Source: a virus | Length of the DNA: 52,442 bases | Reading direction: 5' to 3' (one strand) | IMG/VR virus record: IMGVR_UViG_3300034378_000127 | Span: 1 to 52,442 of that record | Shown here: piece by piece, positions 1-51,645 of the stretch | Layout: the number at the start of each line of letters is the position of its first letter | Numbering within the stretch: position 1 is the stretch's first letter | The notes under the pieces: generated by a model | Told to the model about the DNA's origin: nothing | Databases searched by the model: none | What the model saw: the letters and a program-made list of their open reading frames with translations, nothing else | Translations under genes and position numbers: made by a program

Positions 1-42
1 ATCGTAACCACCCCAACTGTTTACCCATCCTAAATCTTTCAT
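1..42 (-). CDS. Cassette 7 protein, N-terminal 14 residues (gene crosses the window ends)
   Basis: The start ATG lies at 42-40 behind a strong Shine-Dalgarno (GCAGGAGGTATT). The 14 codons encode MKDLGWVNSWGGYD and run off the window in frame. Joined to the minus strand of 52442-52305 they form one uninterrupted 59-aa ORF, which suggests the window is a closed circle. The protein is Trp/Gly-rich at its N terminus. I do not recognise a family. It is the single gene of a cassette whose attC is at 52275-52355. Confidence 0.6.
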   Translation of the reverse strand, partial: MKDLGWVNSWGGYD

Positions 43-68
43 AATACCTCCTGCGGTAGTGCACCGAA

Positions 69-78
69 CTATAAATTG
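69..78 (-). promoter_or_regulatory. Conserved cassette leader box ATTTATAG
   Basis: Reading the minus strand, AATTTATAG lies between the R' box at 102-96 and the start codon at 42. The same box occurs at the same distance (22 nt between the first six bases after the R' G and TATAG) in the leaders at 2057-2048 and 51525-51516. A related TTATAGG lies near 3490. It could be a -10-like promoter element or a translation leader. The function is inferred. Confidence 0.4.
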
Positions 79-95
79 AAAGTGCAATTTATTTT

Positions 96-262
96 GCACA
101 ACGGCATGGCAAATGCACGAAGTATTGCGCCTATAATAAAAAAAGTGCAACGCATAGTTTGTTGGCTGCTGCGTTGCACTACTGGACACACTAAAAACGG
201 TCAGTGCTTCTTAATGATACAATATAATTCATGCGCAACATTTTGTGCTTTGCCTGTTAGCT
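96..262 (-). other. attC-like recombination site 6
   Basis: On the minus strand: R'' AGCTAAC (262-256), 1-nt spacer, arm GGCAAAGCAC (254-245), a long internal region, arm GTGCATTTGCC (118-108) with one extra A, 5-nt spacer, then R' GTTGTGC (102-96). The stop codon of the 257-418 gene lies in R''. The internal region is long (about 126 nt), comparable with the longer attC sites known from chromosomal integrons, and has its own GTGCAACGC... repeats. The single extra base in the R'-side arm matches the usual extrahelical-base asymmetry. Confidence 0.75.
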
Positions 263-418
263 GTTGTGCTGCGATTCCGTTTTATCCTGCGGTTTTGCGG
301 ATTCCACAGACACAGACAGTATAAGTCCACCAATTTTAATTAGACAAGGGTTCGGCAATTCGATGTCTTTCGAATCGGCGTATACTTCACGAGTAACCTT
401 CAAAATGTCTTCTGGCAT
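257..418 (-). CDS. Cassette 6: small unknown protein (53 aa)
   Basis: This short ORF starts at ATG 418-416 behind GAAAGGTGG and ends with TAA at 259-257, inside the R'' box of attC site 6. The protein begins MPEDILKVTREVYADSK and has an acidic N-terminal half, a hydrophobic patch (CLIKIGGLILSVSV) and a polar tail. There is no signal peptide or recognised domain. The good ribosome binding site, lack of overlap and position as the only ORF between two recombination sites support it as a real cassette gene. The function is unknown. Confidence 0.55.
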   Translation of the reverse strand: MPEDILKVTREVYADSKDIELPNPCLIKIGGLILSVSVESAKPQDKTESQHNS

Positions 419-461
419 AATAGCCACCTTTCATTAAATGGTTTACAGATAGCAAAACCGC

Positions 462-496
462 CTACAACATAAGCTGCATTGCAGCTAACGTTCACC
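462..496 (-). other. Short attC-like site 5
   Basis: Minus strand: R''-like GGTGAAC (496-490) containing the TGA stop of the 492-809 gene, a short hairpin AGCTGC-AAT-GCAGCT (486-472), then R'-like GTTGTAG (468-462). It is only 35 bp and lacks the standard spacer geometry, so it may be a reduced attC. Support comes mainly from its position between two cassette genes and the stop-codon overlap. Confidence 0.45.
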
Positions 497-809
497 GTAC
501 TGTGCGAAGTTGCCGTTGTACAACATCGAAAAAGTCTATACAAATATCCATTGGTGTTTCAGCCACCTTGTATTCTTCACAATAATCGCTCCATAAATCT
601 TCAAATAACGGCAATTTTGCACTGCGGGTGTTATGCGCTGTTGAGCAAGTACCATTTTTAGGTTTGCAATACTTTCGGTGAATAGAACCGTCTTTACCAT
701 CATAAATTACGGTGCAAAGAGTACCGCACTTGGTACACCATCTTTTCGTATAACCATAACGGTTAGTATTTTCCTCACAGATTGTTCTAAACACATGCTT
801 ACATCTCAT
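492..809 (-). CDS. Cassette 5: Cys-rich small protein
   Basis: An 105-aa protein if translation starts at the ATG for MRCKHVFRT (809). The frame stays open upstream to 863, but that extension overlaps the recombination-site remnant of the preceding cassette. Visible features are CxxC-type cysteines (WCTKCGTLC) with further cysteines at the N terminus and an acidic middle, suggesting a small zinc-ribbon-like fold. The C-terminal stop lies in the R''-like box of site 5. No family recognised. It stands alone in its cassette. Confidence 0.5.
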   Translation of the reverse strand: MRCKHVFRTICEENTNRYGYTKRWCTKCGTLCTVIYDGKDGSIHRKYCKPKNGTCSTAHNTRSAKLPLFEDLWSDYCEEYKVAETPMDICIDFFDVVQRQLRTVR

Positions 810-840
810 AGTTGCAAACCTACAATTAAATTTAAGAGCG

Positions 841-899
841 AAATGGTGAAGCGCTGAAAGCATTTGGCAAAGCCCGTCAGCACCATTTATTTGTTGCCT
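841..899 (-). other. Degenerate attC-like site 4
   Basis: Minus strand: R''-like AGGCAAC (899-893) immediately before the TAA of the methyltransferase gene, then arms AAATGGTG (888-881) and CACCATTT (848-841) enclosing a loop containing AAATGCTTTCAG. The same loop string occurs in attC site 1. A convincing R' GTT box at the expected 5-nt distance is missing, so the site may be decayed or truncated. Confidence 0.45.
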
Positions 900-1324
900 G
901 CTGTTTGGCTCCGCTCCGCATTATTCTGCGGCGCATTACCACGAAGAATGAAAAGACAGCACGGCGACGGGCTACGCCAAGGCTCACCCGTATCCTTCTC
1001 TAAAAAACGCACACGCCCTGCGGACCTGATTTCGGCCCCTGCCGCCGCCAAATGCATCACATACGACTGACAGGGCAGTAATAAAACAGAGCCGTTCCCC
1101 CGCTTGTGTTCGGCGATAGCTTTATGCGCAAAAGCCGTTGGTCCTTTGCCGCCAACCCCGTCGTGACGACGGAACGGCGGATTCACATAATTCATGCTGC
1201 CCCACGGTACATCGAGACTGTTATACCCTTCCGGCTTGGGGTACGGGCAGGGGTCGAAATCAAAACAAAACTCCCGGTCCAGCGACTCATATAGTGCGGG
1301 AGGGGTGATCCAGTAACTTGACAT
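887..1324 (-). CDS. Cassette 4: Dam-like N6-adenine DNA methyltransferase
   Basis: A 145-aa protein resembling phage DNA N-6-adenine methyltransferases (PF05869 type): N-terminal SYWITPPALYESL, then FDFDPCPYP, and catalytic NPPF at residues 48-51 in the sequence YVNPPF. The family transfers a methyl group from S-adenosylmethionine to adenine and, in phages, commonly protects DNA from host restriction. It starts at ATG 1324 after GAAAGGTTAATC. The stop lies beside R''-like AGGCAAC. It is one of three methyltransferases in the array. The family call is fairly secure; the target sequence is unknown. Confidence 0.8.
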   Translation of the reverse strand: MSSYWITPPALYESLDREFCFDFDPCPYPKPEGYNSLDVPWGSMNYVNPPFRRHDGVGGKGPTAFAHKAIAEHKRGNGSVLLLPCQSYVMHLAAAGAEIRSAGRVRFLEKDTGEPWRSPSPCCLFILRGNAPQNNAERSQTAGNK

Positions 1325-1374
1325 GATTAACCTTTCTTTATGCGCCGCCTACAAAATGGTCGGAGCCAAATTGC

Positions 1375-1430
1375 AGGCAACGTGATGCCAAACGGCGGTA
1401 GTTTTAATTACTCGCCTTTGGCTGTTGCAC
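1375..1430 (-). other. attC-like recombination site 3
   Basis: Minus strand: R'' GTGCAAC (1430-1424), 1-nt spacer, arm GCCAAAGGCG (1422-1413), 15-nt loop, arm CGCCGTTTGGC (1397-1387) with one extra G, 5-nt spacer ATCAC, R' GTTGCCT (1381-1375). This is a compact 56-bp site with textbook geometry and the extrahelical base in the R'-side arm. Confidence 0.85.
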
Positions 1431-1437
1431 GATGTAT

Positions 1438-1665
1438 TCACGATTCCGAAACCCAGGCTTGCAAATCCTCATCGTAAACAGCAGCACAGTCTTGACACCG
1501 CAAAAGCCCCTTGTGCTCGAAACGCCTTATGTGCGGACACTCATTTTCCATGTACGGATCAAGGTTGCGTTCTTCTTCCAAGTACCGAAACTCTCCGACG
1601 TGAGAGCACTGGAAACCAACAAAGTCTTTTCTGCGCACTAATTTGCAAGCCATACAATTCCCCAA
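1438..1665 (-). CDS. Cassette 3: Cys/His-rich small protein (75 aa)
   Basis: It starts ATG 1665 (MGNCMACKLVRRKDF) with a weak GGGG ribosome binding site and ends TGA at 1438-1440, eight bases before attC site 3. Residues include C4-x2-C7, C20-x1-H22, a CPH triplet near residue 43 and CQDC near 57-60. This spacing could bind two zinc ions. No known family is recognised. Its neighbour at 1708-2031 is also Cys-rich, but the two sequences do not look homologous. Confidence 0.6.
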   Translation of the reverse strand: MGNCMACKLVRRKDFVGFQCSHVGEFRYLEEERNLDPYMENECPHIRRFEHKGLLRCQDCAAVYDEDLQAWVSES

Positions 1666-1678
1666 GAGTGAATATTTT

Positions 1679-1713
1679 GTGCAACGTCAGAATTACCCGA
1701 AGTGCCGTTACGA
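1679..1713 (-). other. Short attC-like site 2
   Basis: Minus strand: R''-like TCGTAAC (1713-1707), which contains the TAA stop of the 1708-2031 gene, 21 nt of intervening sequence, then R' GTTGCAC (1685-1679). I see no clear complementary arms, so it may be a truncated site. It is supported by its boxes, the stop overlap and its position between two cassette genes. Confidence 0.4.
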
Positions 1714-2031
1714 CTGCATATAATAGCCATGAATTGGGCAATCTTTATTAATAATTAATGATAAAGACGCACTAATAATTTTGCCACTTGCATCCGTATT
1801 TTTATAATGAAGACCATTTTCTTTACAAAGGCATTTGGGCGAACCCTGTGAGCCGGGTAATTCGTTGTTGGTGGATGTAACATTGCCTTCCATCGATTTT
1901 TCGGCTGGTTTGCCACAATAGATACAGCGCCGCACTCCAGTACAAGGCATGCGCCCTGAGCAAGCGTATGAATGCTCCTTACACTCCACCGTTTCAACTT
2001 TGCCACACCAAGCAATAGTTTTTGTCCACAT
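1708..2031 (-). CDS. Cassette 2: Cys-rich protein (107 aa)
   Basis: It starts ATG 2031 behind GGAGGATATC. The N-terminal half has many cysteines (WCGK, VECKEHSYAC, MPCTGVRRCIYCGKP) in paired arrangements typical of zinc ribbons. A second set follows near KCLCKENG, and the C terminus ends ...DCPIHGYYMQS. The stop lies in the R'' box of site 2. There is no transmembrane segment. Function unknown: zinc-binding folds of this size are found in anti-restriction, DNA-binding and toxin-antitoxin proteins, but nothing here decides among them. Confidence 0.65.
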   Translation of the reverse strand: MWTKTIAWCGKVETVECKEHSYACSGRMPCTGVRRCIYCGKPAEKSMEGNVTSTNNELPGSQGSPKCLCKENGLHYKNTDASGKIISASLSLIINKDCPIHGYYMQS

Positions 2032-2074
2032 GATATCCTCCAGCCGACTATAAATTAAAAGGCAATGTTATTTA

Positions 2075-2133
2075 CACCAACGTTTGACAAATGGCAGATG
2101 TGCTGAAAGCATTTTTGCCTTTGTTTGTTGTTT
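2075..2133 (-). other. attC-like recombination site 1
   Basis: Minus strand: R'' AAACAAC (2133-2127), arm ACAAAGGCA (2124-2116), loop containing AAATGCTTTCAG, arm TGCCATTTGT (2096-2087) with one extra A, 5-nt spacer CAAAC, R' GTTGGTG (2081-2075). This is a 59-bp site with standard geometry. The stretch upstream of R'' (about 2170-2145, AATATTGTAGGTGATTTACA) resembles the stretch upstream of attC site 9. Confidence 0.85.
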
Positions 2134-2198
2134 GTCTGTTTGTAAATCACCTACAATATTTTAAATCCTGTTTGCGCCGAGTTTTTAAGTTTTTGTTT

Positions 2199-3413
2199 TT
2201 AGTAAAAAAGATTAGGTTCTTTAACTTCACCGGAGTAGCCTTTGTTTAAAATATCATCGACCGTAATAAGTTCAATAAAAATTCCCTCTTTTTTTACTCT
2301 TGCAACCTCTTCTTTTGCACCTTTACCAAAACTAAAACCAACAATATAACCTTTCATCTTTTTAGTTTTAGTATTTCTATAATATCTTCTTATTGCTGTT
2401 TCAAAATTATCAACAACATTTCTACCTATTTTTTTTGATTGTTTAACCTGAATAGGACAATGCTCTAAAAAACTAAGACCATCTATACCCATGTCACCAG
2501 ATTTTTTTGGACTTGGCACACCATGCATTTCGTTGATAACCCAATATTGAAATTCATAAGGTTTGAAATCTTTTAAATCTTCTGCTTTCTGTGGCATACC
2601 AATAACATTATAATTTTTGTAAAACCCCGGAATATTAGCAAGTCTCTTTTTAATTAATGCCACAGCAGAGGGGGAAATATCAATACCTATCCATTTGCGG
2701 CCTAATTTTTCAGAAACAGCCAAAGCAGTACCGCATCCACAAAATGCATCAAGCACAATATCATTTTCATTTGAAGATGCTTTTATTACTCTTTCCAAAA
2801 GAGCTTCAGGCTTTTGGGTTGGATAACCTAATTTTTCTTTGGTTGAAGATTGAAGCGCAGCTATTTCCCAAACATCCCTAACAATAGCGTCTCTATATTG
2901 TCTTCCGTCTTTATCAATTTTAAAATCATCTTTTTTAAAACCATATTTATGTTGCATATATGAGCGTTCTGTCATGTAATTAAAAGTCCACTTGCCTGTT
3001 TTTGTATAAAATAAAAGTGTGTCGTGTTTTCTCGACCATCGCTTTTTTGTTGCGCCTTGTGTTCTGTAAGCCCAAGCAATTTCGTTTTGAAAATTTTTAT
3101 ACCCCAAAATTTCATCACACATTACTTTTAAGTAATGGGAAGCATGCCAATCACAATGAAGATAAAAGGAGCCAGTGGATTTTAATACTCTATGTAACTC
3201 TATAACCCTATCACGCATCCAATCAATATAAACATTAATACCACCTTCCCAACGGTCTTCAAAACTTCTTATTTCAGCCTCATCGCTCCAAATAATTTCA
3301 TAATTCCTGTTACTAAAAAAAGGTGGGTCGATATAAACAAGGTCAATGCTTTCTGTTTCAAATGTAGACAATATCTCTAAATTATCACCACAATAAAGTT
3401 TGTTTTTATCCAT
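2199..3413 (-). CDS. Cassette 1: DNA methyltransferase fused to Mrr-like endonuclease domain
   Basis: A 404-aa protein. Residues 1-260 form a beta-class-type DNA methyltransferase with catalytic DPPF at 29-32 and the AdoMet motif DAFCGCG at 222-228. Residues about 285-400 look like a PD-(D/E)xK nuclease of the Mrr type: GIDG near 309-312 (Asp311) followed by QVKQS (Gln322-x-Lys324), with strands typical of that fold. One chain could therefore methylate and cut, as in compact restriction-modification enzymes, or the C-terminal domain could only aid DNA recognition. It is the first cassette of the array. No strong Shine-Dalgarno precedes ATG 3413. The methyltransferase call is secure; the nuclease call is likely. 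Confidence 0.85.
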   Translation of the reverse strand: MDKNKLYCGDNLEILSTFETESIDLVYIDPPFFSNRNYEIIWSDEAEIRSFEDRWEGGINVYIDWMRDRVIELHRVLKSTGSFYLHCDWHASHYLKVMCDEILGYKNFQNEIAWAYRTQGATKKRWSRKHDTLLFYTKTGKWTFNYMTERSYMQHKYGFKKDDFKIDKDGRQYRDAIVRDVWEIAALQSSTKEKLGYPTQKPEALLERVIKASSNENDIVLDAFCGCGTALAVSEKLGRKWIGIDISPSAVALIKKRLANIPGFYKNYNVIGMPQKAEDLKDFKPYEFQYWVINEMHGVPSPKKSGDMGIDGLSFLEHCPIQVKQSKKIGRNVVDNFETAIRRYYRNTKTKKMKGYIVGFSFGKGAKEEVARVKKEGIFIELITVDDILNKGYSGEVKEPNLFY

Positions 3414-3515
3414 TATAAATCCATTTTTATAAAATTGTAGTATTAAGTTTATATTTTTAAATTAATTTCTTTTGTTTTTCGGCGCAAACCTATAATCCAG
3501 TGGTTTACAAATTGC

Positions 3516-3542
3516 AAACAACTAGAGGTTATATGAACCTCT
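3516..3542 (-). other. Array entry point: attI-like or junction site
   Basis: On the minus strand a perfect hairpin AGAGGTT-CATAT-AACCTCT (3542-3524), which overlaps the stop codon of the phage gene at 3541-3753, is followed by A and GTTGTTT (3522-3516). From there on the sequence looks like the start of a cassette (TTTGTAAACCA, then TTATAGG). It marks the boundary between phage core and cassettes. Whether it works as an attI, a secondary integrase site or a simple terminator stem is inference. Confidence 0.4.
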
Positions 3543-3753
3543 ATTTTTTATAAATCTTTCTTATCTTCTTACTTATCAATGGTTTAACTATTTTCATTGG
3601 TTCCTCAAGACTCAAATAAAATTCTCTTATTTTTCTTCTCCGGATTTCTTTACGCCATCTGGAAATAAGCTCATCAAATGTTTTCAAACCGTAAAATTTT
3701 CGCCAATGATTCAACACGGCATGATTCTCAACGCTCAACGCAATAGTCTTCAT
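3541..3753 (-). CDS. Small basic protein (70 aa), last gene of the resolvase operon
   Basis: It starts ATG 3753 and overlaps the stop of the RuvC-like gene (ATGA), so it is probably translationally coupled. It is very basic, especially residues 30-45 (SRWRKEIRRRKIREF) and the C-terminal KKIRKIYKK, and predicted mostly helical. It may bind nucleic acid. No family is recognised. It is the last phage-core gene before the cassette array. Confidence 0.6.
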   Translation of the reverse strand: MKTIALSVENHAVLNHWRKFYGLKTFDELISRWRKEIRRRKIREFYLSLEEPMKIVKPLISKKIRKIYKK

Positions 3754-4238
3754 AACACGCCTGCTTTCCAGAATCCCATACCAACGGCGTCAGCTTCATG
3801 CTGTCTATATCTTCTACCATTAATCCGCTCGACGCGTAGAACCATCTTTCTTTCATTGAGTTGACCGAGCCATTTTGGATCAACGAGAGTAACTTTTTTA
3901 TTATACCGTTCACACATATTCCAATAACCACCTATCAGATAAGCTAATGTATCAAGTGAACCGGATAATGAAACTCTTGTACCAAAAACTGTTGGCAAAT
4001 GTCTAACACTTTCAATCCAAACTTCATCTATTTTTTTATTAAGCGTTCTTATTAGAGCCCCAAACTGTAACCACATACTGCACATTCTCTCCCCTTGTGT
4101 AGAAACTCTTCTCTTATTTCTCTCTGGATGGATAAGTCCTGTCATTGGATGTTTATCACCATGAAAAACTGCCCATCCTGTGTTACCGATGCCAGGATCA
4201 ACGAACATTGCTTTATCAGGATATTTAATTATTTGCAC
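3750..4238 (-). CDS. RuvC-like Holliday junction resolvase
   Basis: A 162-aa protein with the RNase H-fold signature of RuvC resolvases: DPGIGNTGWA with Asp14, EVWIES with Glu76, and HEADA with His147/Asp150 near the C terminus. These supply the acidic metal-binding residues that cut four-way junctions. In phages such enzymes resolve recombination intermediates and branched DNA before packaging. The start is GTG 4238 (an internal ATG at residue 11 is possible). It overlaps the helicase gene by 14 nt, suggesting coupled expression. Confidence 0.85.
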   Translation of the reverse strand: MQIIKYPDKAMFVDPGIGNTGWAVFHGDKHPMTGLIHPERNKRRVSTQGERMCSMWLQFGALIRTLNKKIDEVWIESVRHLPTVFGTRVSLSGSLDTLAYLIGGYWNMCERYNKKVTLVDPKWLGQLNERKMVLRVERINGRRYRQHEADAVGMGFWKAGVL

Positions 4239-5637
4239 GATTATGCATTCCGTTTATGATTGCTTTTAATTGCATATTACGTTTTTCTTTTCGCCGAAGC
4301 GATTTAACAATATCTTCATCAACAGAATTCTCGATAACCAAATCAATTATTAATAATGAATCTGTCTTACTGACATCAACAAACCTATCCTCCGTCTGCT
4401 GGCGGGTCTCCAGACCGCAGGGACTCGAATAATAAATCATAGTTGCTGCGCACGAGAGATCGACACCATGCCGAAAACATTCAGGCTGGCAGATGATTGT
4501 TCTGAGGGCACCATCGAAGAACTGTTTTCGCATCTCGTTTCTTTCTTGTGGTTTCACTTGCCCACAGATGACTGCTGAAGAAATCTTGTTTCTCGTAAGT
4601 TCACTATGGATAGCGAGTATCTCATCGATGAAGACCGCCCAGATAATTACCTGCTCATTGCGAAGCTCGCCGGTCAGCAGGTCAATCAACGCTCTCATCT
4701 TCGCGAGTTGAATTAGCTTCCCCTCTACCAATCCACCGCAGATTCTTCTCAGCCAGATGAATGCAGTAGTCGCGTATAAGGTCTTATCCACTTCCTGACC
4801 GTCAATCTCGAGCACGAATGACCGCTCGACTTCGTCGTAGGTCTTTCGCGCTTTACTCGAAAGTTCTACCTTCGCGAGTCGGTGAATCTTTTCACCGCCG
4901 AGATTGACGTCCTTTCGCGCCAGGAAGTGACAATGCTTATGTAACGCTCGGGCGAGGCGCTTTCGTCCTTCAGAATGTATGAACCATCGAGAACCATCGG
5001 AAGCAGGCGTGAAGTTGTTATGGCGCCACGCATAATATATTGACTCGCTAAGTATATCAGGTGAAAGAAATTTCAATTGACAAAAATATTCGAGTTCGCT
5101 TTCTGGCGCAGGCGTTCCACTGAGGATAGCTTTATACGGAACCTGTTTGAAGTTCTTTAAATAAAATTCGGTAACTTTGGCATCAGGTGATTTTATAAAT
5201 GTACTTTCATCAATTATAATAGCATCCCAATCAACGTACTTGATATCTTCAATGACTTGCCAACCTTCTTTATTTAATAAGTTAAATTGAGCTTTTGACC
5301 AAAGCGCATTTAACCGCTTAGATTTCTCTCCTATTAAGTATGCGATGTTTTGTATGCCTTCCTCCTTTAGTGCTATTTCCCAGCCTTCTAAGGCGCTGTA
5401 CGAGGAGACTATAAGCACTCTCTTTATTTCAGAAATAGATAATAACCAACGTATGATGATTAAAGTTTTACCAAGTCGCATATCTACGAAAAGAGCGACC
5501 AGTTTACGTTTCAAACAATACTCAAGTATCTCAATTTGATATGGTCGCATTTTCTTCAAAGAAAGCGGACGCGAGGCGTCCACTGGAGAAGCCTTACTAC
5601 CTCGCGTCCTAAGGGCGGCAGGAGGCGTCATACTCAC
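4225..5637 (-). CDS. SF2 (SNF2-like) DNA helicase
   Basis: A 470-aa superfamily 2 helicase: motif Q region MRPYQIEILEYC from residue 30, Walker A MRLGKT (residues 53-58), DEST box at 143-146, motif III SGTPAPES, and motif VI TRQQTEDR near the end of the second RecA lobe. It resembles phage SNF2-type helicases used in recombination-dependent replication or branch migration and sits next to the resolvase. The start is GTG 5637 (GTGA overlap with the upstream stop) or ATG 5631. The first 29 residues are low complexity and encoded by a GC-rich inverted repeat, so translation might instead begin at Met30. Confidence 0.85.
   Translation of the reverse strand: MSMTPPAALRTRGSKASPVDASRPLSLKKMRPYQIEILEYCLKRKLVALFVDMRLGKTLIIIRWLLSISEIKRVLIVSSYSALEGWEIALKEEGIQNIAYLIGEKSKRLNALWSKAQFNLLNKEGWQVIEDIKYVDWDAIIIDESTFIKSPDAKVTEFYLKNFKQVPYKAILSGTPAPESELEYFCQLKFLSPDILSESIYYAWRHNNFTPASDGSRWFIHSEGRKRLARALHKHCHFLARKDVNLGGEKIHRLAKVELSSKARKTYDEVERSFVLEIDGQEVDKTLYATTAFIWLRRICGGLVEGKLIQLAKMRALIDLLTGELRNEQVIIWAVFIDEILAIHSELTRNKISSAVICGQVKPQERNEMRKQFFDGALRTIICQPECFRHGVDLSCAATMIYYSSPCGLETRQQTEDRFVDVSKTDSLLIIDLVIENSVDEDIVKSLRRKEKRNMQLKAIINGMHNRANN
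5567..5609. repeat. GC-rich perfect 10-bp inverted repeat
   Basis: GGACGCGAGG (5567-5576) and CCTCGCGTCC (5600-5609) can pair around a 23-nt loop. The segment is strikingly GC-rich for this AT-rich genome and encodes the dispensable-looking N terminus of the helicase. It could be a small inserted palindromic element or an RNA hairpin controlling helicase translation. Confidence 0.6.
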
Positions 5638-6188
5638 TTACCGCCGGTGAGTTTTTTGAGTTTTTCTTTTGTTACCATTTTTCCATTATATCGAAACAAC
5701 TGAAAAATCTTGTCTTTCTTCGCAAGTTGAACATTAATATTAGATCGAACAAGTGACATTTTATATTTTTCAGTTGGAAACAAGTCCTTACCAAACTTCG
5801 CTTGAACTTTCGCAATGATTTCTTCATCTGTATATTTACGCTCAAGCGAAAGAGCACGAACAAGGGACTTGATAGTTATGGGTCGACCAGTTTTTTCTTC
5901 AGTCGATTCCTTTGTTATCTTCTTAACTGGTTTATTCTTCTTTTCAGTTTTTTCATTCATTGTCTCCTTGGCCTTTGCATCCTTCTTGGCTGCTGTTCGT
6001 TTTTTCGCCACTTCTTCCTCCTCAGTTAAATGAAATAACGTCGGTATTCCCCTAAAATATCCAACTGCTTTAAGCTGTTGCTTTAATGCATCTTGTGATT
6101 TTGCTATACCTTCGCATCCTTTATATTCCCACAAAACGCGAGGTTGATTATCTGACCAACGTACAGCCTCGACAACCAAATCTCTCAT
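5634..6188 (-). CDS. Unknown protein with Lys/Glu-rich linker (184 aa)
   Basis: The start was chosen at ATG 6188 because the extended Shine-Dalgarno GGAGGCGTCA lies just upstream (the frame is open to 6209). The N-terminal domain (about residues 1-60) begins MRDLVVEAVRWSDNQPRVLW. A highly charged Lys/Glu linker follows, then a C-terminal helical domain (TIKSLVRALSLERKYTDEE...). The layout suggests two small domains on a flexible tether, possibly nucleic-acid binding. It overlaps the helicase start. No family recognised. Confidence 0.65.
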   Translation of the reverse strand: MRDLVVEAVRWSDNQPRVLWEYKGCEGIAKSQDALKQQLKAVGYFRGIPTLFHLTEEEEVAKKRTAAKKDAKAKETMNEKTEKKNKPVKKITKESTEEKTGRPITIKSLVRALSLERKYTDEEIIAKVQAKFGKDLFPTEKYKMSLVRSNINVQLAKKDKIFQLFRYNGKMVTKEKLKKLTGGK

Positions 6189-6215
6189 AATTTGACGCCT
6201 CCTTTTCATTTAAAA

Positions 6216-6416
6216 TTAAAATATGCTGTCAATCCAATGCTTATTCAGCATGTGATTTTGAGCGGCTATAGATGCATTTATTTCCGATTGTGATAAAAAC
6301 TCGAAATCCTGTGAAGATGAGAAGTCTTCAACAAAACCTTCGAAACCGCAATTCTTGCAGACGACTGTTTTATTGTCAAGTGATTTTAGATTATACGATG
6401 AACATTCTGGGCACAT
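6216..6416 (-). CDS. Zinc-ribbon protein (66 aa)
   Basis: It begins MCPECSSYNL and continues TVVCKNCGF, giving two CxxC knuckles 16-17 residues apart, the classic TFIIB/transcription-factor-type zinc ribbon. The C-terminal half is acidic and helical. The ribosome binding site is AAGGAGACGTC. Such small ribbons in phage early operons may bind DNA or RNA or the host polymerase; the role here is not determined. Confidence 0.7.
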   Translation of the reverse strand: MCPECSSYNLKSLDNKTVVCKNCGFEGFVEDFSSSQDFEFLSQSEINASIAAQNHMLNKHWIDSIF

Positions 6417-6442
6417 TATTCCGACGTCTCCTTATATTAATT

Positions 6443-6628
6443 TTATTTTTTCTTTGTTAATTTATTGGTATCAATATAGATAAAACCATATTGATTCTGC
6501 ATCGTTAATCTTATTTTTGCAATGCCTTTATCGTCTATTGATTTGACAATACCACAATATGTACAATACCGACCAAACTTAAACTGCCTTCTCCAATATA
6601 CAGAGTCATTTATTTTAATTTCATTCAT
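6443..6628 (-). CDS. Small beta-barrel-like protein (61 aa)
   Basis: It starts ATG 6628, overlapping the upstream stop by one base (TAATG). The pattern of alternating hydrophobics (MNEIKINDSVYWRRQFKF, then YCGIVKSIDDKGIAKIRL) resembles SH3/KOW-like barrels. One CTYC pair is present. It lies in the promoter-proximal part of the operon from 6959 to 3541. Function unknown. Confidence 0.6.
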   Translation of the reverse strand: MNEIKINDSVYWRRQFKFGRYCTYCGIVKSIDDKGIAKIRLTMQNQYGFIYIDTNKLTKKK

Positions 6629-6807
6629 TATGACGCTTCCACATTAATAATTTTAAAATCAGCCATCTCAAGATTTGTCAATAAATGATTCGCGAATCTT
6701 GCATTCTCATCATCAGTCAAATGCTTGTTAAATGCTTCATAAGATGAGTCTCGAATTATTTCTAATAATAAATCTAATTCTGCTTTTGTGAATTCCATTC
6801 TTTTCAT
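6628..6807 (-). CDS. Small unknown protein (59 aa)
   Basis: This short gene runs ATG 6807 to TAA 6630-6628, behind the extended Shine-Dalgarno GGAGGCGTCAGA. The protein starts MKRMEFTKAELDLLLEII and is acidic and helical. Its start overlaps the previous gene's stop (ATGA) and its stop overlaps the next start (TAATG), so it is embedded in a tightly coupled operon. This is strong evidence that it is translated. No family recognised. Confidence 0.7.
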   Translation of the reverse strand: MKRMEFTKAELDLLLEIIRDSSYEAFNKHLTDDENARFANHLLTNLEMADFKIINVEAS

Positions 6808-6959
6808 TCTGACGCCTCCTCTGTGTAAGGTTTTATTTTATCACGAACTTCTTGCAAATCTTTATGGTCATCACAGGCTACCCATCCTTCCTCAGTCATA
6901 ACATGAAACGAACCATCTGCATGCTTTACAACATAACCAATTTTGTGTTGGGATTTCAT
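6804..6959 (-). CDS. Small unknown protein (51 aa), first gene of the operon
   Basis: It runs ATG 6959 to TGA 6806-6804 with Shine-Dalgarno AAGGAGGCGTCAAG. The protein begins MKSQHKIGYVVKHADGSFHV with a likely small beta-sheet, then an acidic helix. It is the first gene after the promoter at 7011-7039 and overlaps the next gene by four bases. No family recognised. Confidence 0.7.
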   Translation of the reverse strand: MKSQHKIGYVVKHADGSFHVMTEEGWVACDDHKDLQEVRDKIKPYTEEASE

Positions 6960-7010
6960 CTTGACGCCTCCTTATTGAATTGTGGATTTCTCTCTTGCTC
7001 TCTATTATAT

Positions 7011-7039
7011 ATTATATATGATTTATAGCAAAAAATCAA
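7011..7039 (-). promoter_or_regulatory. Sigma70-type promoter for the 6959-3541 operon
   Basis: Minus strand: -35 TTGATT (7039-7034), 17-nt spacer, -10 TATAAT (7016-7011). Transcription would start near 7004, about 45 nt before the first start codon. It is the best promoter match in the window and lies directly upstream of a coupled operon. Confidence 0.75.
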
Positions 7040-7112
7040 GTATTTTCTTAGCTAATTTTCTAACTCTTTAAAAATCAATAAGTTATAATTTCATATTTTC
7101 ACTAATTTCAGC

Positions 7113-7260
7113 ATTTTAATACAAAATTAATACACTTTTAATACAACAAACTATCACTATATATTTATATTATAATTTACAAATAATAATATATAAATAT
7201 AAAAAAGGCAAATGTATATATACATTTGCCATATTAAAATTGTATTAAAACTGTATTAAA
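7113..7260. repeat. Iteron region A: 11-bp-phased TTAATA / TATTAA repeats
   Basis: TTAATA occurs at 7116, 7127 and 7138, and the inverted TATTAA at 7232, 7243 and 7254, every step exactly 11 bp (about one helical turn). The two arms flank an AT-rich core (TTATAATTTACAAATAA) and the terminator at 7201-7230. The same arms recur at 41889-42170 and one arm at 40340-40367. It is probably a protein-binding array (operator, activator or origin). The gene-free stretch 6960-7260 otherwise holds the promoter above and AT-rich DNA. Confidence 0.75.
7201..7230 (-). terminator. Rho-independent terminator at the end of the late operon
   Basis: Minus strand: a self-complementary GGCAAATGTATA / TATACATTTGCC hairpin (7230-7207) followed by TTTTTT (7206-7201). 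It lies about 30 nt after the stop of the last late gene (7261-7455), inside iteron region A. Confidence 0.85.
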
Positions 7261-7455
7261 TTATTTCTTTTTTTCCTTCTCCTTATCAACTTCGATTAAA
7301 GATTCTTTTTCTTTTTCAAGAATCTCAACCTTTTTCTTCAGTTCTTGATTTTCTCTAAGCAGCCTTGCACATTCATCTACGAGTCCACGTACATTGTTCT
7401 GCAAAGCAAGAATCTCACGCCCAATTTGTGAATCGATTGCTTCCAGTGACGGCAT
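7261..7455 (-). CDS. Coiled-coil protein (64 aa), last late gene
   Basis: It starts ATG 7455 behind CCAAGGAGGTTCAA. Residues 15-64 form a heptad-rich helix (LRENQELKKKVEILEKEKE) ending in a Lys/Glu tail. Possible roles are a fibre chaperone or adaptor, since it follows the tail fibre gene. No specific family recognised. Confidence 0.7.
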   Translation of the reverse strand: MPSLEAIDSQIGREILALQNNVRGLVDECARLLRENQELKKKVEILEKEKESLIEVDKEKEKKK

Positions 7456-7485
7456 TTGAACCTCCTTGGCTTTAATTGTGAATTG

Positions 7486-9174
7486 TTATACCCATTGCGC
7501 TAAAGCTGCAACGGATGCTCCAGTTGTTTGTGCTGTTAAGATACCACCAGTAAAAGTCAGCGTTATTCTCCAATTCGCTCCATCATCAAGTGTCAAAGTT
7601 CCTGTTAATCCATCACTACCATTAGCATTAAATATTGTATTTGCACGTACTTTCCCGTCAAAACGATATTCAGAAAGACCATCAAATGAAGCAGTATCAT
7701 TTGCATCCTTTCCCACGCCTATTTGCATCTGTTCAATGCCACCCGCGCCGGCGTTATAACCACTTATTTTCAATTCAGGAGTGTTTCCAGAAGCTACGTT
7801 ATTGAAAAGATGTACACTCTGTGCAGTTTGGACGCTATCTTGTAAATAAAGAACACTTATTGAAGATCCAGCTGTTGTGATATAATCATGTCCTCCGGAT
7901 TCATATAATTCTATACCGACTCCGGCTGCGGTGCCAAAAAATCCTTTACCTTCAGCATATAATGCATAATCGATATTAGATCCTGACTCGATATAAATAC
8001 CATAAGCAGAACCACTAGGATCAAAACCCGCATCTGCTTTAACATATAACCCATATAAGCTGCCACCTAAAGAATTTAATGAACCCAATGCCGATCTTGA
8101 ATAAATATACGTGCCAAGCACATCACTGCTTATATTACCAGCCTGTGCATAGCTCTCAATATATGATCCATATAAATTTGTAATAGTACCATTTATTGTA
8201 TTAACATAATTATAATCAGCTATTAAACTACCAATAGTACTACCACTATCATTCATCCGTGCAATATTATGAATACCATAGACATGATCACTTGCATCTG
8301 TAGTGCCAGCTATTTTAATATGAGAATTATATATACCATGATACGTAACAGTTGTATCCACAGCGTTATCTTGAATAAAGAGATGTTTATCTGTTGTAGG
8401 GGTAACTCCAATGCCAACATGACCAGTGAACTCAATATTATCTGATCTATCAATTATAACTGAATCGTCTGTGCCAACTCCAGTTCGACTAATCTTAAGT
8501 TTATCAGCATCGTCATCATCAAGACCTATAAACCAAGTACTTGCTCCAGAATTGCCTATTTCAAGATAAGAATCTGTAGTTCCATCTGGACTTAACACTC
8601 TTATAACAGAATCGCCAGTTCCACCACTAGTGATATGCAGAGTTGTATCTGTAGCGTCTGCTCTATTCACATGCAATGTTGCTGCTGGAGTGTTTGTTCT
8701 TATCCCTATATTGCCAGAACTTCCTTCAATGAAGAGTGCATTTGATACTGCATTAGCATTTGCGATAAAATCAATATCAACTTCTCCAGCGTTAAATTCT
8801 GCATAATCTGTTCCACCTTCAACGAAATCCCAGAACTCTACACTGCCGATCACAGTTGTTTTCCGGTCAGCACGCCATCTGTCATAGCTATCTGTGTCAC
8901 CCTGGTGGTAAAGATATTCTGATACATACAAATCATCATTTATAGTGACATCACCAAAATCATTATCGAGAAACGTAAATGCTGAGCCATCTGTGCTGTA
9001 TTTTTGTAGTGCCCCCACATATGTTTTAGTGTTATCATCATTCTTCCAGACGAATTCATCATATGGAAGTGCTGCCGTAACGTTGTTGACAATAGCTATT
9101 TGTCCATGGTCTGCATTTGCATAAATATTCGCCCAGGTGTCTTCGATATGTGTGATATGAACTTGTTGAGCCAT
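7486..9174 (-). CDS. Tail fibre / receptor-binding protein
   Basis: A 562-aa protein. The N-terminal part holds QQVHITHIEDTWANIY. The middle has repeated fibre-like units with the GI-(R/G)-TNTP and GIGVTPTTD motifs seen in many phage fibres, plus many short beta strands rich in Gly, Ser, Asp and Thr. The C terminus ends in a compact beta domain (LTLTFTGGILTAQTTG-like). I see no S74 autocleaving chaperone at the end. Its place after the tail-tip gene fits a host-binding fibre. Its start overlaps the stop of the upstream gene. Confidence 0.7.
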   Translation of the reverse strand: MAQQVHITHIEDTWANIYANADHGQIAIVNNVTAALPYDEFVWKNDDNTKTYVGALQKYSTDGSAFTFLDNDFGDVTINDDLYVSEYLYHQGDTDSYDRWRADRKTTVIGSVEFWDFVEGGTDYAEFNAGEVDIDFIANANAVSNALFIEGSSGNIGIRTNTPAATLHVNRADATDTTLHITSGGTGDSVIRVLSPDGTTDSYLEIGNSGASTWFIGLDDDDADKLKISRTGVGTDDSVIIDRSDNIEFTGHVGIGVTPTTDKHLFIQDNAVDTTVTYHGIYNSHIKIAGTTDASDHVYGIHNIARMNDSGSTIGSLIADYNYVNTINGTITNLYGSYIESYAQAGNISSDVLGTYIYSRSALGSLNSLGGSLYGLYVKADAGFDPSGSAYGIYIESGSNIDYALYAEGKGFFGTAAGVGIELYESGGHDYITTAGSSISVLYLQDSVQTAQSVHLFNNVASGNTPELKISGYNAGAGGIEQMQIGVGKDANDTASFDGLSEYRFDGKVRANTIFNANGSDGLTGTLTLDDGANWRITLTFTGGILTAQTTGASVAALAQWV

Positions 9175-18038: not shown

Positions 18039-18518
18039 TTATCTAAACGATTCTGGATCGCTCAATCTTATTCTATACCATATTTCAAAAACTACATCGA
18101 CTCCACAAATTCCTCTCTGTGCGTCAACTCCCCATGGAGTACTTGATAAATAGACACAATTGAATGCTGTCTGATCACCCGTTTCACTTGGAACCCAATG
18201 ACGAGAGCCAAAATATTGCTGCAAATCAGCTATTATTTTATCTTGTGCTAAAGGTGGATTAGTTGTTTTAAAATAGCACTCACATGTAAATTCAAAACGG
18301 ATATCAAGTAGTGAGTCATTTGCTGCCCCAAGATGTTCTCCTGTACGAAACTCCTGACCCCATTCGAGATTAATACAAGGAAAACGAGTCATCTTCTCCA
18401 TTTCTTTTATTGGATCATATACAGCTTTCACTGTACTGCGATATCCGTTTGTTATCGTTATTTGCTGCAATCCGTATTTTAATGCTTCACGCAATTTTGT
18501 TCTTACTGTATTTGACAC
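18039..18518 (-). CDS. Tail terminator / completion protein
   Basis: A 159-aa protein starting GTG 18518 (MSNTVRTKLREALKYGLQQI). Helix, then beta strands (FPCINLEWGQEF, FEFTCECYFKTT) and a C-terminal strand near VVFEIWYRIRLS match the pattern of gpU/tail-terminator-like proteins, which cap the tail tube and join it to the head. It directly precedes the tube gene. It overlaps the end of the last glycan-island gene by 16 nt. Confidence 0.65.
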   Translation of the reverse strand: MSNTVRTKLREALKYGLQQITITNGYRSTVKAVYDPIKEMEKMTRFPCINLEWGQEFRTGEHLGAANDSLLDIRFEFTCECYFKTTNPPLAQDKIIADLQQYFGSRHWVPSETGDQTAFNCVYLSSTPWGVDAQRGICGVDVVFEIWYRIRLSDPESFR

Positions 18519-19696
18519 TCATTGACCTCTTTCGCCAACAGACCTATCAAAATTTTGCGTTGTTCAATTCGGTTCTGATTCATTTTGTTATGTTCCCATG
18601 CTCGTCGAGCGTACCAAAGTGCTTTTTCATTTTCACCTTTTGCCATATACAAATTACTTAACCTCTCCGCAGGAAGTTCTTCATAAAAAGCAGTTGTTTG
18701 CATCATTCCTGAATAAAGTTTTTTCTTTAATGCTACAATATACATATTTTCTGCTTGCTCTCTTAACTCTCTCTGTAAATAAATATCACCAAGAAGTACG
18801 TATGGTTCTGCATAATCCATGGAGAAACCAAGAGCGAGCCGAGACCAGTGTTCTACTTTATCAAGATTATTGATATCCATGTCATCGATTTTTGGTCTCA
18901 AAAGATAATTATTGTAAGCATAAAAAAATGCTATTTCAATACAAGCAAGATATAAATTTTCATATGATCCCTCCAGATTTTGAATCATATCACCAAAAAT
19001 ACTAAGAGCTCGTTTTTGATCTCCGCTTAGTAATAAATCTCGAGAAAGGAAATATTTTAATTGCGTGTCCATATTCCCATTAAATTTCTCATATTCATGT
19101 TCAAGAATTTTAACGTTTCTCAGAGCACTAGCATATTGAGGTTTCGATGGTAAGTGCGTGATAAAGAAATTTTTAAAACTTGCAGCAACTAAATCATCCC
19201 AATGAACATCAAATTGTTCATGTACAGGATTTTTCCATCTTAGTACTCCATTATTTTTAAATACTCGCTCTCGCATAAATACAGATAAAGGTTCAAGAGT
19301 ACTATCAAGAGAGACTGCATATGGAACAAAATAAGCATCAATTCCTGAATTCGTATTATTTCTAACAATACCACAGAGCTTTCGAAATTTTCCCTGATGA
19401 ATTCCAAGACAACAATCATCTGAATCAAGCCACATTATCATATCAGATTTTGTGTTATCAATTAATTTATTTCTTGCAATGGAAAAATTCCCATTTGGAT
19501 ATCTTTCACTCGACCATTGAATATCAACTAAAACATCAGCAAAATTCTTTGCGACTTTTTTAACGTTTTCGTCTTTTGATGTAAGTCCAATAACAATTTC
19601 ATCAAAATTCTCTCGTACGTTAAAAGAATCAAGGCAACGTTTAAGTTCACTTGTTTCATTTGCTCCTACTATGATATTTAATGCCAGTGTTGTCAT
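18503..19696 (-). CDS. GT2 glycosyltransferase with C-terminal TPR-like helices
   Basis: A 397-aa protein. Residues 1-180: GT-A fold of family 2, starting LALNIIVGANETSELKRCLDS with SIARNKLI and the metal-binding MWLDSDDC. Residues about 200-397: helical repeats (YLLRPKIDDMDI, ALGFSMDYAEPYVLLGDIYL) resembling tetratricopeptide units. The combination is common in enzymes adding a sugar to glycans. It is the last of eight glycan genes and is coupled to the tail terminator gene. The substrate is unknown. Confidence 0.8.
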   Translation of the reverse strand: MTTLALNIIVGANETSELKRCLDSFNVRENFDEIVIGLTSKDENVKKVAKNFADVLVDIQWSSERYPNGNFSIARNKLIDNTKSDMIMWLDSDDCCLGIHQGKFRKLCGIVRNNTNSGIDAYFVPYAVSLDSTLEPLSVFMRERVFKNNGVLRWKNPVHEQFDVHWDDLVAASFKNFFITHLPSKPQYASALRNVKILEHEYEKFNGNMDTQLKYFLSRDLLLSGDQKRALSIFGDMIQNLEGSYENLYLACIEIAFFYAYNNYLLRPKIDDMDINNLDKVEHWSRLALGFSMDYAEPYVLLGDIYLQRELREQAENMYIVALKKKLYSGMMQTTAFYEELPAERLSNLYMAKGENEKALWYARRAWEHNKMNQNRIEQRKILIGLLAKEVNECQIQ

Positions 19697-19716
19697 ACAC
19701 TCTTCCTTCTTAGCGT

Positions 19717-20592
19717 TTATATATCAAACCACTCTTTACAAAGTGAGACGAATTGCTCTGCTCGTTTATCATAAGTATGCATTCTCGATGCTGTTTTATG
19801 TCCGTTTTCTGCTACTCGTTGTCGTAATGAATCATTTTTGAGATAATAATTGATAACACTCAGGCAATCTTCATAATCTCGATAAACAATTATATCCGTT
19901 CCTACTTTAAAAAGCACATCAAGTCCAGGAGAATTATTTACTATTAACATTGTTCCTGCACCAGTAGTTTCAAATATTCGGTAATTCAAATCATGTCTTA
20001 TATTCATATTGAAATGAATCTTACATCTGCGGATAAAATTAACCATGTTGTCTCCATAATGTATTTCTGAGATCATGCCAATATCACTTTTGAGACGTTT
20101 AATGAATTCTGTTCTCTCTATGTTACCATTTGATCCACAGTATCCTATATTAATTGTTTTCTCCGAATCGTCCGGAAAAATCAAATCATTAGGATAAGCA
20201 TTTGGAAACCATTTTATTTTTGTTGATACAGTATTTTCAAACTTTTCTACGTCTAGCATACAAGAACATAAAACTCCATCAATTAAATTTCTATTAACAG
20301 TTTCTAGATGACTTTTAAGATTTAGATGACTATCAATCGACCAAAAAACTTTCGGTTTTGCAATTCTATGCATCGATGGAACCATGAACAAAGTGTATTG
20401 TTCCAAAAGCAAAAGCACGTCACAATCTTCTGAAGCGCGCTCAAGTGAATGTGTGTTGAAATTCTCATAACCAATTCCCCACACAACAGCTTCATGCCCT
20501 ACTCGTTCAAACGCTCTTTGTAAACAAAGAGATTCTCTGTATTTTTGGTTTATCTCTTTTCGAGACGCTTCCTGTATAATAAAAACCTTCAT
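19717..20592 (-). CDS. GT-B-type glycosyltransferase (Glyco_trans_1_2/CgeB-like)
   Basis: A 291-aa protein. MKVFIIQEASRKEINQKYR begins a GT-B N-terminal domain. The C-terminal half carries INIGYCGSNGNIERTEF and the donor-binding region YRIFETTGAGTMLIVNNS ... LDVLF, then a trailing helix with RVAENGHKTASRMHTYDKRA, which is typical of PF13524 enzymes. It transfers a nucleotide-sugar residue to an unknown acceptor. A 112-bp non-coding gap with direct repeats lies between its start codon and the methyltransferase-like gene upstream in transcription (20705-21136). Confidence 0.8.
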   Translation of the reverse strand: MKVFIIQEASRKEINQKYRESLCLQRAFERVGHEAVVWGIGYENFNTHSLERASEDCDVLLLLEQYTLFMVPSMHRIAKPKVFWSIDSHLNLKSHLETVNRNLIDGVLCSCMLDVEKFENTVSTKIKWFPNAYPNDLIFPDDSEKTINIGYCGSNGNIERTEFIKRLKSDIGMISEIHYGDNMVNFIRRCKIHFNMNIRHDLNYRIFETTGAGTMLIVNNSPGLDVLFKVGTDIIVYRDYEDCLSVINYYLKNDSLRQRVAENGHKTASRMHTYDKRAEQFVSLCKEWFDI

Positions 20593-20612
20593 ATTTATTG
20601 ATTTTACCTTTA

Positions 20613-20691
20613 TTTAAACGGTTAAAATTCACCGATATTCGGGAATTCGTATAAAACCATAGCCAAAACTGATTTTAAGCGGTTAAATGTC
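20613..20691. repeat. Direct repeat in the glycan-island gap
   Basis: TTTAAACGGTTAAAATTC (20613-20630) and TTTAAGCGGTTAAATGTC (20674-20691) are near-identical 18-mers 61 bp apart. They occupy the only sizeable gap in the island (20593-20704), upstream of the 19717-20592 gene. They could be regulator-binding sites or remnants of an insertion. Confidence 0.5.
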
Positions 20692-20704
20692 ATATTTCTT
20701 ATTA

Positions 20705-21136
20705 TCATGATACCACTGCCCAAAAGTCACCGTCCTCGTAAAATCGAACCATTTTATTAAGTTCTGTCGCTAATCTGATAGCTGTATTCCGATCGAGGTC
20801 ACGATTCGTGTCATGAACCAGTATCATTTTACAATTCTGCACCAAATCGATCCTGTTCAATATTCTATCTCTTCCGATTCCGTCAATAATCACAAGATAC
20901 GGTTCAACCTTTCGGAATACGCTATCAACAATATGCGGATTATACCATCCGTCAACTTTCGGTGCATAGATGTAATGAGAATCGTATTTCCCAATCCATT
21001 CCCTATCATGCTCAATTGAATACAGTTGATAATCATTACATAATTCCTTAGTCGACACGTCGCCCGCGCCGAATTCTACTATTATGGATTCCCTTGGTAC
21101 ATGCTCCTTTATCCAATCAATCACGGCCTTTTCCAT
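20705..21136 (-). CDS. SAM-dependent methyltransferase-like protein
   Basis: Start ATG 21136 was chosen for GGAGG seven bases upstream (the frame is open to 21178). The 143-aa protein has a Rossmann motif IIVEFGAGDVSTKELC, then LYSIEHDREW as the acidic strand-2 end, and a LVIIDGIGRDR strand 4 with LVHDTNRDL following. This fits a class I methyltransferase-like fold, short for the family. It sits among glycosyltransferases, so a sugar or surface substrate is likely. Catalysis is not proven. Confidence 0.65.
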   Translation of the reverse strand: MEKAVIDWIKEHVPRESIIVEFGAGDVSTKELCNDYQLYSIEHDREWIGKYDSHYIYAPKVDGWYNPHIVDSVFRKVEPYLVIIDGIGRDRILNRIDLVQNCKMILVHDTNRDLDRNTAIRLATELNKMVRFYEDGDFWAVVS

Positions 21137-21153
21137 CCCACTGCCTCCATAAT

Positions 21154-22047
21154 TCATGTTGCCGTTGCCTCTGGACAAGGATCTGGTTCATCAACTTGTA
21201 TCTGTTCCCACTGTCCAGTAATATCAGTCCAGTGTTTACCATCTTGCCAGAAATCACTAACACCAAGGAATTCAGCAATAACATTACATCGATCACGTTC
21301 CCAATCCGTATTCACTTTATGTAAATGAGCTTCATAATAACCGCCAGAGAATAATTTATCCCGATCGACTTTCCATGCTGCCCGGTCAAGTGTGTCAGTC
21401 CAGATATTATATCCACGTTCAACCTCGATCAACCGATCACGTCCGAAACGATTTAATAAAGCAAGACAAAGCGATTCATCTGAAAAATCAGGTTTGGATA
21501 CGAGCTCACGGTGATCCCCAACTGAGCCATTGATAGGATATTTGAATCTATTAAATAATCCTGTAAAAGAAAGATTCTCTGGATTTACAAATTGTTGAAA
21601 GATATATGATTCAGTAGTCATTGCCGACATAGGAACTTTTCCATTTTCGTGCGGATTACTAGTGTAGACTTCCTTTCCCATCATCATGATTTTTGTTGGC
21701 TCCCATTGACGATATTTATTTTCATAAAATCCTCGCTGACATGGAACAAAATCAATATCATGTAATGTACAAACATCATGACCAAACTGTCCAGCAATCC
21801 AAAGTCGCCCAATTTTTGCAAGATTGGCAGAATAATGATGTTGACTTCCATAGACAACATGTAATGTATCTACCCAGCGGCCACAAAAATTCCAATACTC
21901 TGTCCATGATCTGTTGCCGACGACAATCAGTGATATCCGGAACTCTGGAAAGAATTTTTGCCACGCCGCTGAAGCCAACGGCAGAAAATCGAGATGATAC
22001 CCATCATCCGCACTCAAGATAATTCTTATAGGTATAGCTCTTTTCAT
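21154..22047 (-). CDS. GT-A-type glycosyltransferase-like protein
   Basis: A 297-aa protein starting ATG 22047 behind GGAGATATTGAA, with an ATGA overlap with the upstream gene. RIILSADDGYHLDFLPLA, a RISLIVVGN strand and TLHDIDFVPC (a DxD-like HDID motif) indicate a nucleotide-sugar-binding GT-A fold. Later WKVDRDKLFSGGYYEAHLH holds acceptor-side residues. Substrate unknown. Confidence 0.65.
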   Translation of the reverse strand: MKRAIPIRIILSADDGYHLDFLPLASAAWQKFFPEFRISLIVVGNRSWTEYWNFCGRWVDTLHVVYGSQHHYSANLAKIGRLWIAGQFGHDVCTLHDIDFVPCQRGFYENKYRQWEPTKIMMMGKEVYTSNPHENGKVPMSAMTTESYIFQQFVNPENLSFTGLFNRFKYPINGSVGDHRELVSKPDFSDESLCLALLNRFGRDRLIEVERGYNIWTDTLDRAAWKVDRDKLFSGGYYEAHLHKVNTDWERDRCNVIAEFLGVSDFWQDGKHWTDITGQWEQIQVDEPDPCPEATAT

Positions 22048-24488: not shown

Positions 24489-24515
24489 TCTTGATTCTCC
24501 TTCTTGGCGTTATAT

Positions 24516-51503: not shown

Positions 51504-51515
51504 AAGGGCGAAAAC

Positions 51516-51525: not shown

Positions 51526-51542
51526 AAAATTCTGAAAATGGC

Positions 51543-51624: not shown

Positions 51625-51645
51625 TTTGTAAAGTTGCCCACAATA

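Follow-up and report, generated by a model that had tools for sequence, protein, structure and literature searches.

The window, meaning here the whole stretch of DNA that was analysed, comprises 52,442 bases (IMG/VR virus record IMGVR_UViG_3300034378_000127, positions 1 to 52,442). A Pfam scan of 41 ORFs in the window yielded terminase, portal, capsid, prohead protease and DNA polymerase A genes, which identifies the window as a tailed phage with a bacterial or archaeal host. The same scan matched Glycos_transf_2 twice as well as Glyco_trans_1_2 and WbqC, and a run of glycosyltransferase-like and WbqC-like genes (18503–25178, minus strand), placed by eye, apparently lies between the phage tail and head genes.

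Close to the left end lies the gene studied here. The sequence-only reading had placed a methyltransferase–endonuclease fusion at 2199–3413 with no strand given; we recovered this interval as an open frame on the minus strand and located each of the motifs that had been named (DPPF at residues 29–32, DAFCGCGT at 222–229, GIDG at 309–312 and QVKQS at 322–326). The features of the gene and its surroundings are collected in Table 1.

Table 1 Features of the fusion gene and of the candidate cassette array in the window
Feature	Position	Strand	Details
Methyltransferase–nuclease fusion gene	2199..3413	-	404 aa, one uninterrupted frame; ATG at 3413; stop 2201–2199
Residues 1–262, beta-class DNA amino-methyltransferase	2628..3413	-	PF01555, E 7.3e-53; DPPF (motif IV) first, DAFCGCGT (motif I) second
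Residues 141–186, likely target-recognition segment, hypervariable	2856..2993	-	Alignment divergence and position between motifs
Residues 266–404, predicted Mrr-type PD-(D/E)xK nuclease domain	2202..2618	-	Mrr_cat 22.2 bits; model pLDDT 88.8; VIA-align Z 10.9–8.7 to nucleases
Putative catalytic signature D311 - Q322 - x - K324 (GIDG...QVK)	2442..2483	-	Conservation among relatives
Cassette start, R'-type box GTTGTTT	3516..3522	-	Exact reverse complement of the box at 2127–2133
attC-like site downstream of the fusion gene	2075..2133	-	R''-type AAACAAC (2133–2127) to R' GTTGGTG (2081–2075)
Hairpin, 8-bp, terminator-like on both strands	3523..3543		Between phage replication genes and cassette
Further probable cassettes of the same array	1..2081	-	ORFs 1708–2031, 1438–1665, 887–1324, 492–863 and smaller
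Probable cassettes at the other contig end	50743..52281	-	Include a second, solo N6_N4 methyltransferase, 50769–51503

The two halves of the fusion protein

The amino-terminal half matched PF01555 (N6_N4_Mtase) over residues 23–256 with 180.2 bits against a cut-off of 26.7. Motif IV (DPPF) upstream of motif I (FxGxG) is the beta-class order, and in the protein DPPF indeed precedes FCGCG (residues 224–228), so that the earlier assignment to the beta class holds on both counts. The closest solved structures were M.MboIIA, CcrM and M.BceJIV, followed by M.RsrI. A Type II methyltransferase profile scored 5.6e-68 on the fusion protein, better than the PADLOC Type III Mod profiles, which matched residues 8–333 with an E-value of 2.4e-45. 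By its position between motifs VIII and X, as in beta-class methyltransferases, we take the segment 141–186 to be the target-recognition domain.

For the carboxy-terminal half, PF04471 (Mrr_cat) matched residues 300–389 at 19.2 bits in a scan of the whole protein, just under the cut-off of 21, and reached 22.2 bits when residues 266–404 were scanned alone. Since 60 of 62 homologous C-terminal domains matched the same profile at E ≤ 0.01, and since the Asp and Lys of the signature are near-invariant in the 155 relatives described below, this match is more than chance. The Pfam family NA-iREase1, an 'inactive' REase family, was matched by 29 of the 62 domains; the C-terminal domain of the window protein itself gave no NA-iREase1 match at E ≤ 0.01.

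An AlphaFold2 model of residues 266–404, built from 62 sequences, was obtained with a pLDDT of 88.8 and a pTM of 0.82. D311 is placed just ahead of a short strand and Q322–K324 at the end of the next, so that in the predicted structure the signature is at the positions expected for a PD-(D/E)xK fold. Foldseek alone yielded no match below E 0.01 for this model; its best row was the NucS repair endonuclease (E 0.01), narrowly ahead of rows for ClpP and RNA polymerase subunits. We ran VIA-align on the top 1000 chains from Foldseek and considered the best 50 rows, where ranks 1–12 were held by 11 rows titled as nucleases and by AF1548, titled as of unknown function, with Z-scores of 10.9–8.7. AF1548, which we take to be an Mrr-like protein, ranked first (Z 10.9, 2.7 Å, 101 residues), followed by R.BspD6I2 (10.2), FokI (10.1 and 9.8), a Pyrococcus repair endonuclease (9.7), EndoMS (9.4 and 8.8), AspBHI (9.3), MspJI (9.1 and 8.8), EcoT38I (8.8) and LlaBIII (8.7); unrelated RNA polymerase rows begin at Z 8.1. 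The nuclease domain of LlaBIII was also the best PDB sequence match of the profile, aligning GVD/IQAK to GID/QVK, with a weak E-value of 0.21. The proposed Mrr-like character of this domain is thus upheld by the Mrr_cat match, the conserved Asp and Lys and the nuclease-led structural neighbours. The structure check suggested earlier gave a predicted fold nearest to nucleases; neither a non-nuclease fold nor a missing Asp/Lys pair was found in residues 266–404.

Conservation of the nuclease signature

From viral and genome contigs we collected 180 loci, corresponding to 155 distinct protein sequences. Dozens of contigs, bacterial, archaeal and viral, carry the fusion; it is a common architecture, not special to this phage. 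Among the relatives having the respective column, D311 is kept in 141 of 142, K324 in 141 of 141 and G309 in 140 of 142, and position 322 is occupied by Gln (93), Ser (46) or Glu (2). In a FastTree phylogeny built on the methyltransferase half, the window protein belongs to a clade of 77 rows with a support of 99. Within this clade, position 322 is Gln in 63 rows, Glu in two and Ser in none, the domain being absent in 11 rows and disrupted in one. All 65 intact domains of the clade therefore carry Gln or Glu, and the putative catalytic set is kept there without exception.

In a large sister subfamily the catalytic Gln is replaced by Ser (SVK), and many of its members match NA-iREase1. Judged from these substitutions and matches, catalysis is doubtful in part of the family though the fold is kept. 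In addition, a separate Mrr_cat gene adjoins the SVK-type member of a Cellulosimicrobium plasmid (L185), which argues for S-type domains being no longer the nuclease. Because the catalytic set is intact in its own clade and NA-iREase1 is not matched, we expect nuclease activity for the window protein, and are less certain of it for the family at large.

PF01555 and PF04471 also occur in one chain in Marinitoga phage MPV1, Mycobacterium phage Amgine and Cellulosimicrobium plasmid pTL2A, with 35–37% identity to the window protein; the Amgine and pTL2A members read SVK, whereas the window protein reads QVK. Public phage and plasmid records label family members simply as (DNA) methyltransferase. 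A literature search confined to open-access PMC found no characterised beta-class methyltransferase with a C-terminal Mrr domain; within this limited search, the architecture is widespread and apparently uncharacterised.

A hypervariable segment within the methyltransferase half

We computed the information content over 141 full-length rows. Residues 141–170 reached about 1.5–1.6 bits, with only the linker (261–270) and the C-terminal tail as low or lower, compared with 2.0–2.7 bits for the nuclease motif region (281–330) and 3.2–4.0 bits for the methyltransferase motifs. In 219 pairs with a methyltransferase-core identity of 0.80–0.95, the mean identity was 0.29 for the recognition segment and 0.69 for the nuclease. 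The window protein follows this profile, sharing 139/166 core, 14/45 recognition-segment and 82/102 nuclease residues with L003, 140/166, 13/41 and 76/102 with L004, 133/166, 16/44 and 73/102 with L005, and 120/166, 9/44 and 60/103 with L006. Elsewhere in the family, L113 and L117 have identities of 0.89 in the core and 0.97 in the nuclease at 0.26 in the recognition segment.

Divergence of this segment next to a near-constant nuclease would fit both halves sharing one target-recognition domain. Were the two activities on separate proteins, a new methylation target would expose unprotected sites to the nuclease, whereas a one-chain enzyme switches both together. A pair from the S subfamily (L147 and L151) likewise has a diverged recognition segment and a conserved second domain, so the pattern fits shared recognition and is no proof of cutting. 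A second domain that binds DNA without catalysis would likewise be expected to stay conserved next to a variable segment.

The fusion gene in a candidate cassette array

The spacers between the small minus-strand ORFs at 1–3500 resemble one another. An integron-type cassette whose first box is GTTnnnn is expected to close with that box in exact reverse complement, followed by the attC hairpin and the next CGTT, and recombination swaps R' between neighbouring cassettes. For the fusion-gene cassette, GTTGTTT at 3522 pairs with AAACAAC at 2133, with the next CGTT 52 nt further on. Exact box pairs were found for six of eight listed intervals (starts 3522, 1685, 489, 52281, 51913 and 51549) and no matching box in the stretch searched for the other two; the eight interval ends were picked after the result of the link scan described below was known.

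A first attC scan, pairing R'' and R' inside one site, gave no enrichment (2 in 5.5 kb versus 12 and 13 in 46.9 kb), which counts against the naive attC model. Because of this exchange of R', a second test matched each cassette start to the end of the same cassette. On the array strand it yielded 12 links in 3.7 kb on the left and 6 in 2.0 kb on the right, the rest of the window having 31 and 35 in 46.7 kb, which corresponds to 3.2 and 2.9 links per kb at the contig ends versus 0.66–0.75 per kb elsewhere; the opposite strand of the left part had 6 links. The left link count was reached in 1 of 200 shuffles and its longest chain (1) in 190 of 200. On the right, the chain of 4 was reached in none of 200 shuffles and the link count in 6; one of these four right-hand links ends inside a uracil-DNA glycosylase ORF and is probably due to chance. 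The fusion-gene cassette alone had at least one link in 126 of 2000 shuffles and at least two in 4 of 2000, and the same pair test on the loci of the relatives gave at least one link in 1 of 144. The cassette evidence for the methyltransferase–nuclease gene taken alone is modest.

An Rfam scan of 1–7500 for an attC or RNA element returned one weak snoRNA match (E 0.56), which we discarded. The 41 window ORFs gave matches to 25 families, none of them Phage_integrase or another integrase family; the contig may be incomplete. The array is thus probably an integrase-less one (CALIN), with the fusion gene as its first cassette, and may continue from one contig end to the other. The earlier proposal of a first cassette is borne out insofar as integron-type boundary repeats delimit the gene and several neighbours, with the gene first in the run. 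Its corollary, that this would be the normally best-expressed position, is not supported, because no integrase with a cassette promoter was matched in the 41 ORFs, promoter-like sites are at chance level (2 versus 1.7) and a terminator-like hairpin lies directly upstream.

If the genome were circular, the cassettes at both ends (1–3522 and 50743–52281, minus strand) would form one array of roughly ten cassettes, and, judged by eye, the frame of a short ORF at the left end continues into the right end. The short minus-strand ORF at 887–1324 resembles, again by eye, a phage Dam-type methyltransferase, and PF05869 was matched by one of the 41 scanned ORFs; the array may hold three DNA methyltransferases.

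Genomic neighbourhood of the family

We scanned the nearest predicted genes on either side of the Q-clade relatives (115 proteins of 137 listed). Neither a recurrent partner nuclease or restriction enzyme nor a helicase was present among the Pfam families listed (25 of 28 and 25 of 79) for these 115 neighbour genes, which include two IS1595 transposases as well as phage and housekeeping genes. One relative (L179) is flanked by two members of the same family; at 3334–8017 of this locus three methyltransferase/Mrr family genes lie side by side, each with 36% identity to the window protein, the central one having Glu for Gln. In the window, an ORF with SNF2/Helicase_C matches (4225–5637) lies about 0.8 kb upstream of the fusion gene on the same strand, is not adjacent to it, and had no detectable nuclease domain.

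In three close relatives (L003, L005 and L007), the start of the fusion gene lies within 20 nt of the end of an IS1595- or IS1-type transposase on the same strand, and in two further loci (L049 and L129) a short IS1-like fragment immediately precedes it, as if the enzyme were a transposon passenger in these five. A matching transposase ORF was found in the examined flanks of 8 of the 155 loci, L049 and L129 among them, and a search of three such loci for flanking terminal inverted repeats gave nothing convincing. One of the 41 window ORFs weakly matches an IS1595 zinc-ribbon (E 1.9e-4). Transposition of the window's gene was not adopted as an explanation, as no such transposase ORF was seen beside it.

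Proposed function and alternative explanations

We consider it fairly probable that the gene encodes a phage-borne single-chain restriction-modification enzyme carried as an integron-type gene cassette, where cleavage, the shared target, adenine as the modified base and the biological use are what we infer. In this scheme, the amino-terminal beta-class methyltransferase would read a short DNA target via the variable segment (residues about 117–186) and methylate an adenine within it. The Mrr-type domain, with an E/Q in helix 1, D311 and Q322-x-K324, would cut near the same target when unmodified, borrowing the recognition segment of the methyltransferase in the manner of Type IIC/IIG enzymes. 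During infection, the phage's own DNA would be marked against host enzymes, and unmarked DNA of the host or of competing phages would be cut. Against this reading, a phage producing such an enzyme in active form could cleave its own DNA early on, while it is still unmethylated; Foldseek alone gave no match below E 0.01; and the Ser in place of Gln/Glu in 46 of the 141 domain-bearing relatives, together with the NA-iREase1 matches of 29 of 62 domains, makes cleavage doubtful in part of the family.

Eleven relatives in the window's clade do without the nuclease half, so the methyltransferase can be useful alone. These members, like the Ser substitutions and the many NA-iREase1 matches, would also suit a protective orphan-type methyltransferase in which the C-terminal nuclease fold would clamp DNA or form part of a dimer, and the cassette would do no more than shield phage DNA from host restriction; phage integron cassettes with solo methyltransferases are published and read as protective (PMC9892861). 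Gln or Glu in every intact domain of the clade and the near-invariant Asp and Lys across the family are hard to explain without catalysis, which leaves this reading unlikely, if still of some weight. We regard as improbable that the domain acts as a modification-dependent, Type IV-like nuclease attacking foreign-methylated DNA while the methyltransferase adds a competing mark. The methyl-sensing domains of Mrr, MspJI and AspBHI are separate from the nuclease domain, and none was seen in the window protein, where residues 1–262 are methyltransferase and 266–404 nuclease; moreover, a methylating chain would itself generate the DNA that it cuts, unless its own mark differed from the one attacked. 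What favours it is that modification dependence is a property of Mrr itself and of MspJI and AspBHI, both among the structural neighbours (PMC4081073). More remote still, and in our view very improbable, is a Type III- or ISP-like system in which the fusion protein supplies modification and nuclease and the nearby SNF2-type helicase the motor: the Type III Mod profiles and the same-strand helicase ORF upstream speak for it, but the Type II profile scores better, a cassette boundary and the hairpin lie between helicase and fusion gene, and helicases are absent among the families listed for the relatives' neighbours.

Returning to the restriction-modification enzyme, it is possible, and we advance it tentatively, that a large one-piece class (beta-class methyltransferase plus C-terminal Mrr nuclease), with a swappable segment steering both activities, has been taken up by a phage as an integron cassette. 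If so, the move of a 1.4-kb cassette would hand over shield and weapon together. An active enzyme would add to Type IIC/IIG a compact one-chain layout of about 400 aa with easily exchanged specificity and many natural variants, and would show that whole restriction-modification units, beyond protective methyltransferases, can travel in phage integron arrays; cassettes with solo methyltransferases are already known (PMC9892861). If the nuclease half is inert, the S/Q split of the family is a clean case of a nuclease domain becoming a helper part.

Comparison with known systems

The methyltransferase half aligns with M.MboIIA, CcrM and M.RsrI over most of the methyltransferase fold, whereas these chains lack a nuclease domain. 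Phage CALINs have been reported by Qi et al. 2023, who describe 17 of them, with five methyltransferase cassettes and attC sites active with IntI1 (PMC9892861). Polaribacter phage P12002L is similar to the window in having DNA methyltransferase genes between attC sites in a phage without an integrase (PMC9892861), but the annotated methyltransferases compared are 232–266 aa long, with no room for a nuclease domain.

Among single-chain restriction-modification enzymes, LlaGI and LlaBIII (Type ISP) share the Mrr-like PD-QxK nuclease domain (PMC3874165). They differ by a translocase domain, a gamma-class methyltransferase and a length of about 1500 residues, none of which applies to the window protein; no Type ISP translocase domain was found in its 404 aa, which are filled by methyltransferase and nuclease. 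As in MmeI, Eco57I and BpuSI, methylation and cutting domains would share one specificity module in one chain; those enzymes have an N-terminal nuclease and a gamma-class methyltransferase (PMC4081073), whereas here the nuclease is C-terminal and the methyltransferase beta-class. The fusion protein thus has the domain content of Type IIC/IIG, with cutting and methylation domains in one chain, and departs from their main layout. Type IIC enzymes are mostly of that layout, and BtgZI is named as an exception, with an alpha-class methyltransferase and a C-terminal PD-QxK in one chain (PMC4081073). BtgZI, compared here by its description there, resembles the window protein in the single chain and in the order of methyltransferase and then C-terminal PD-(D/E)xK variant with Gln for Glu, and differs in its alpha-class methyltransferase as against the beta-class motif order found here. 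By this analogy, the enzyme of the window would be a beta-class counterpart of BtgZI.
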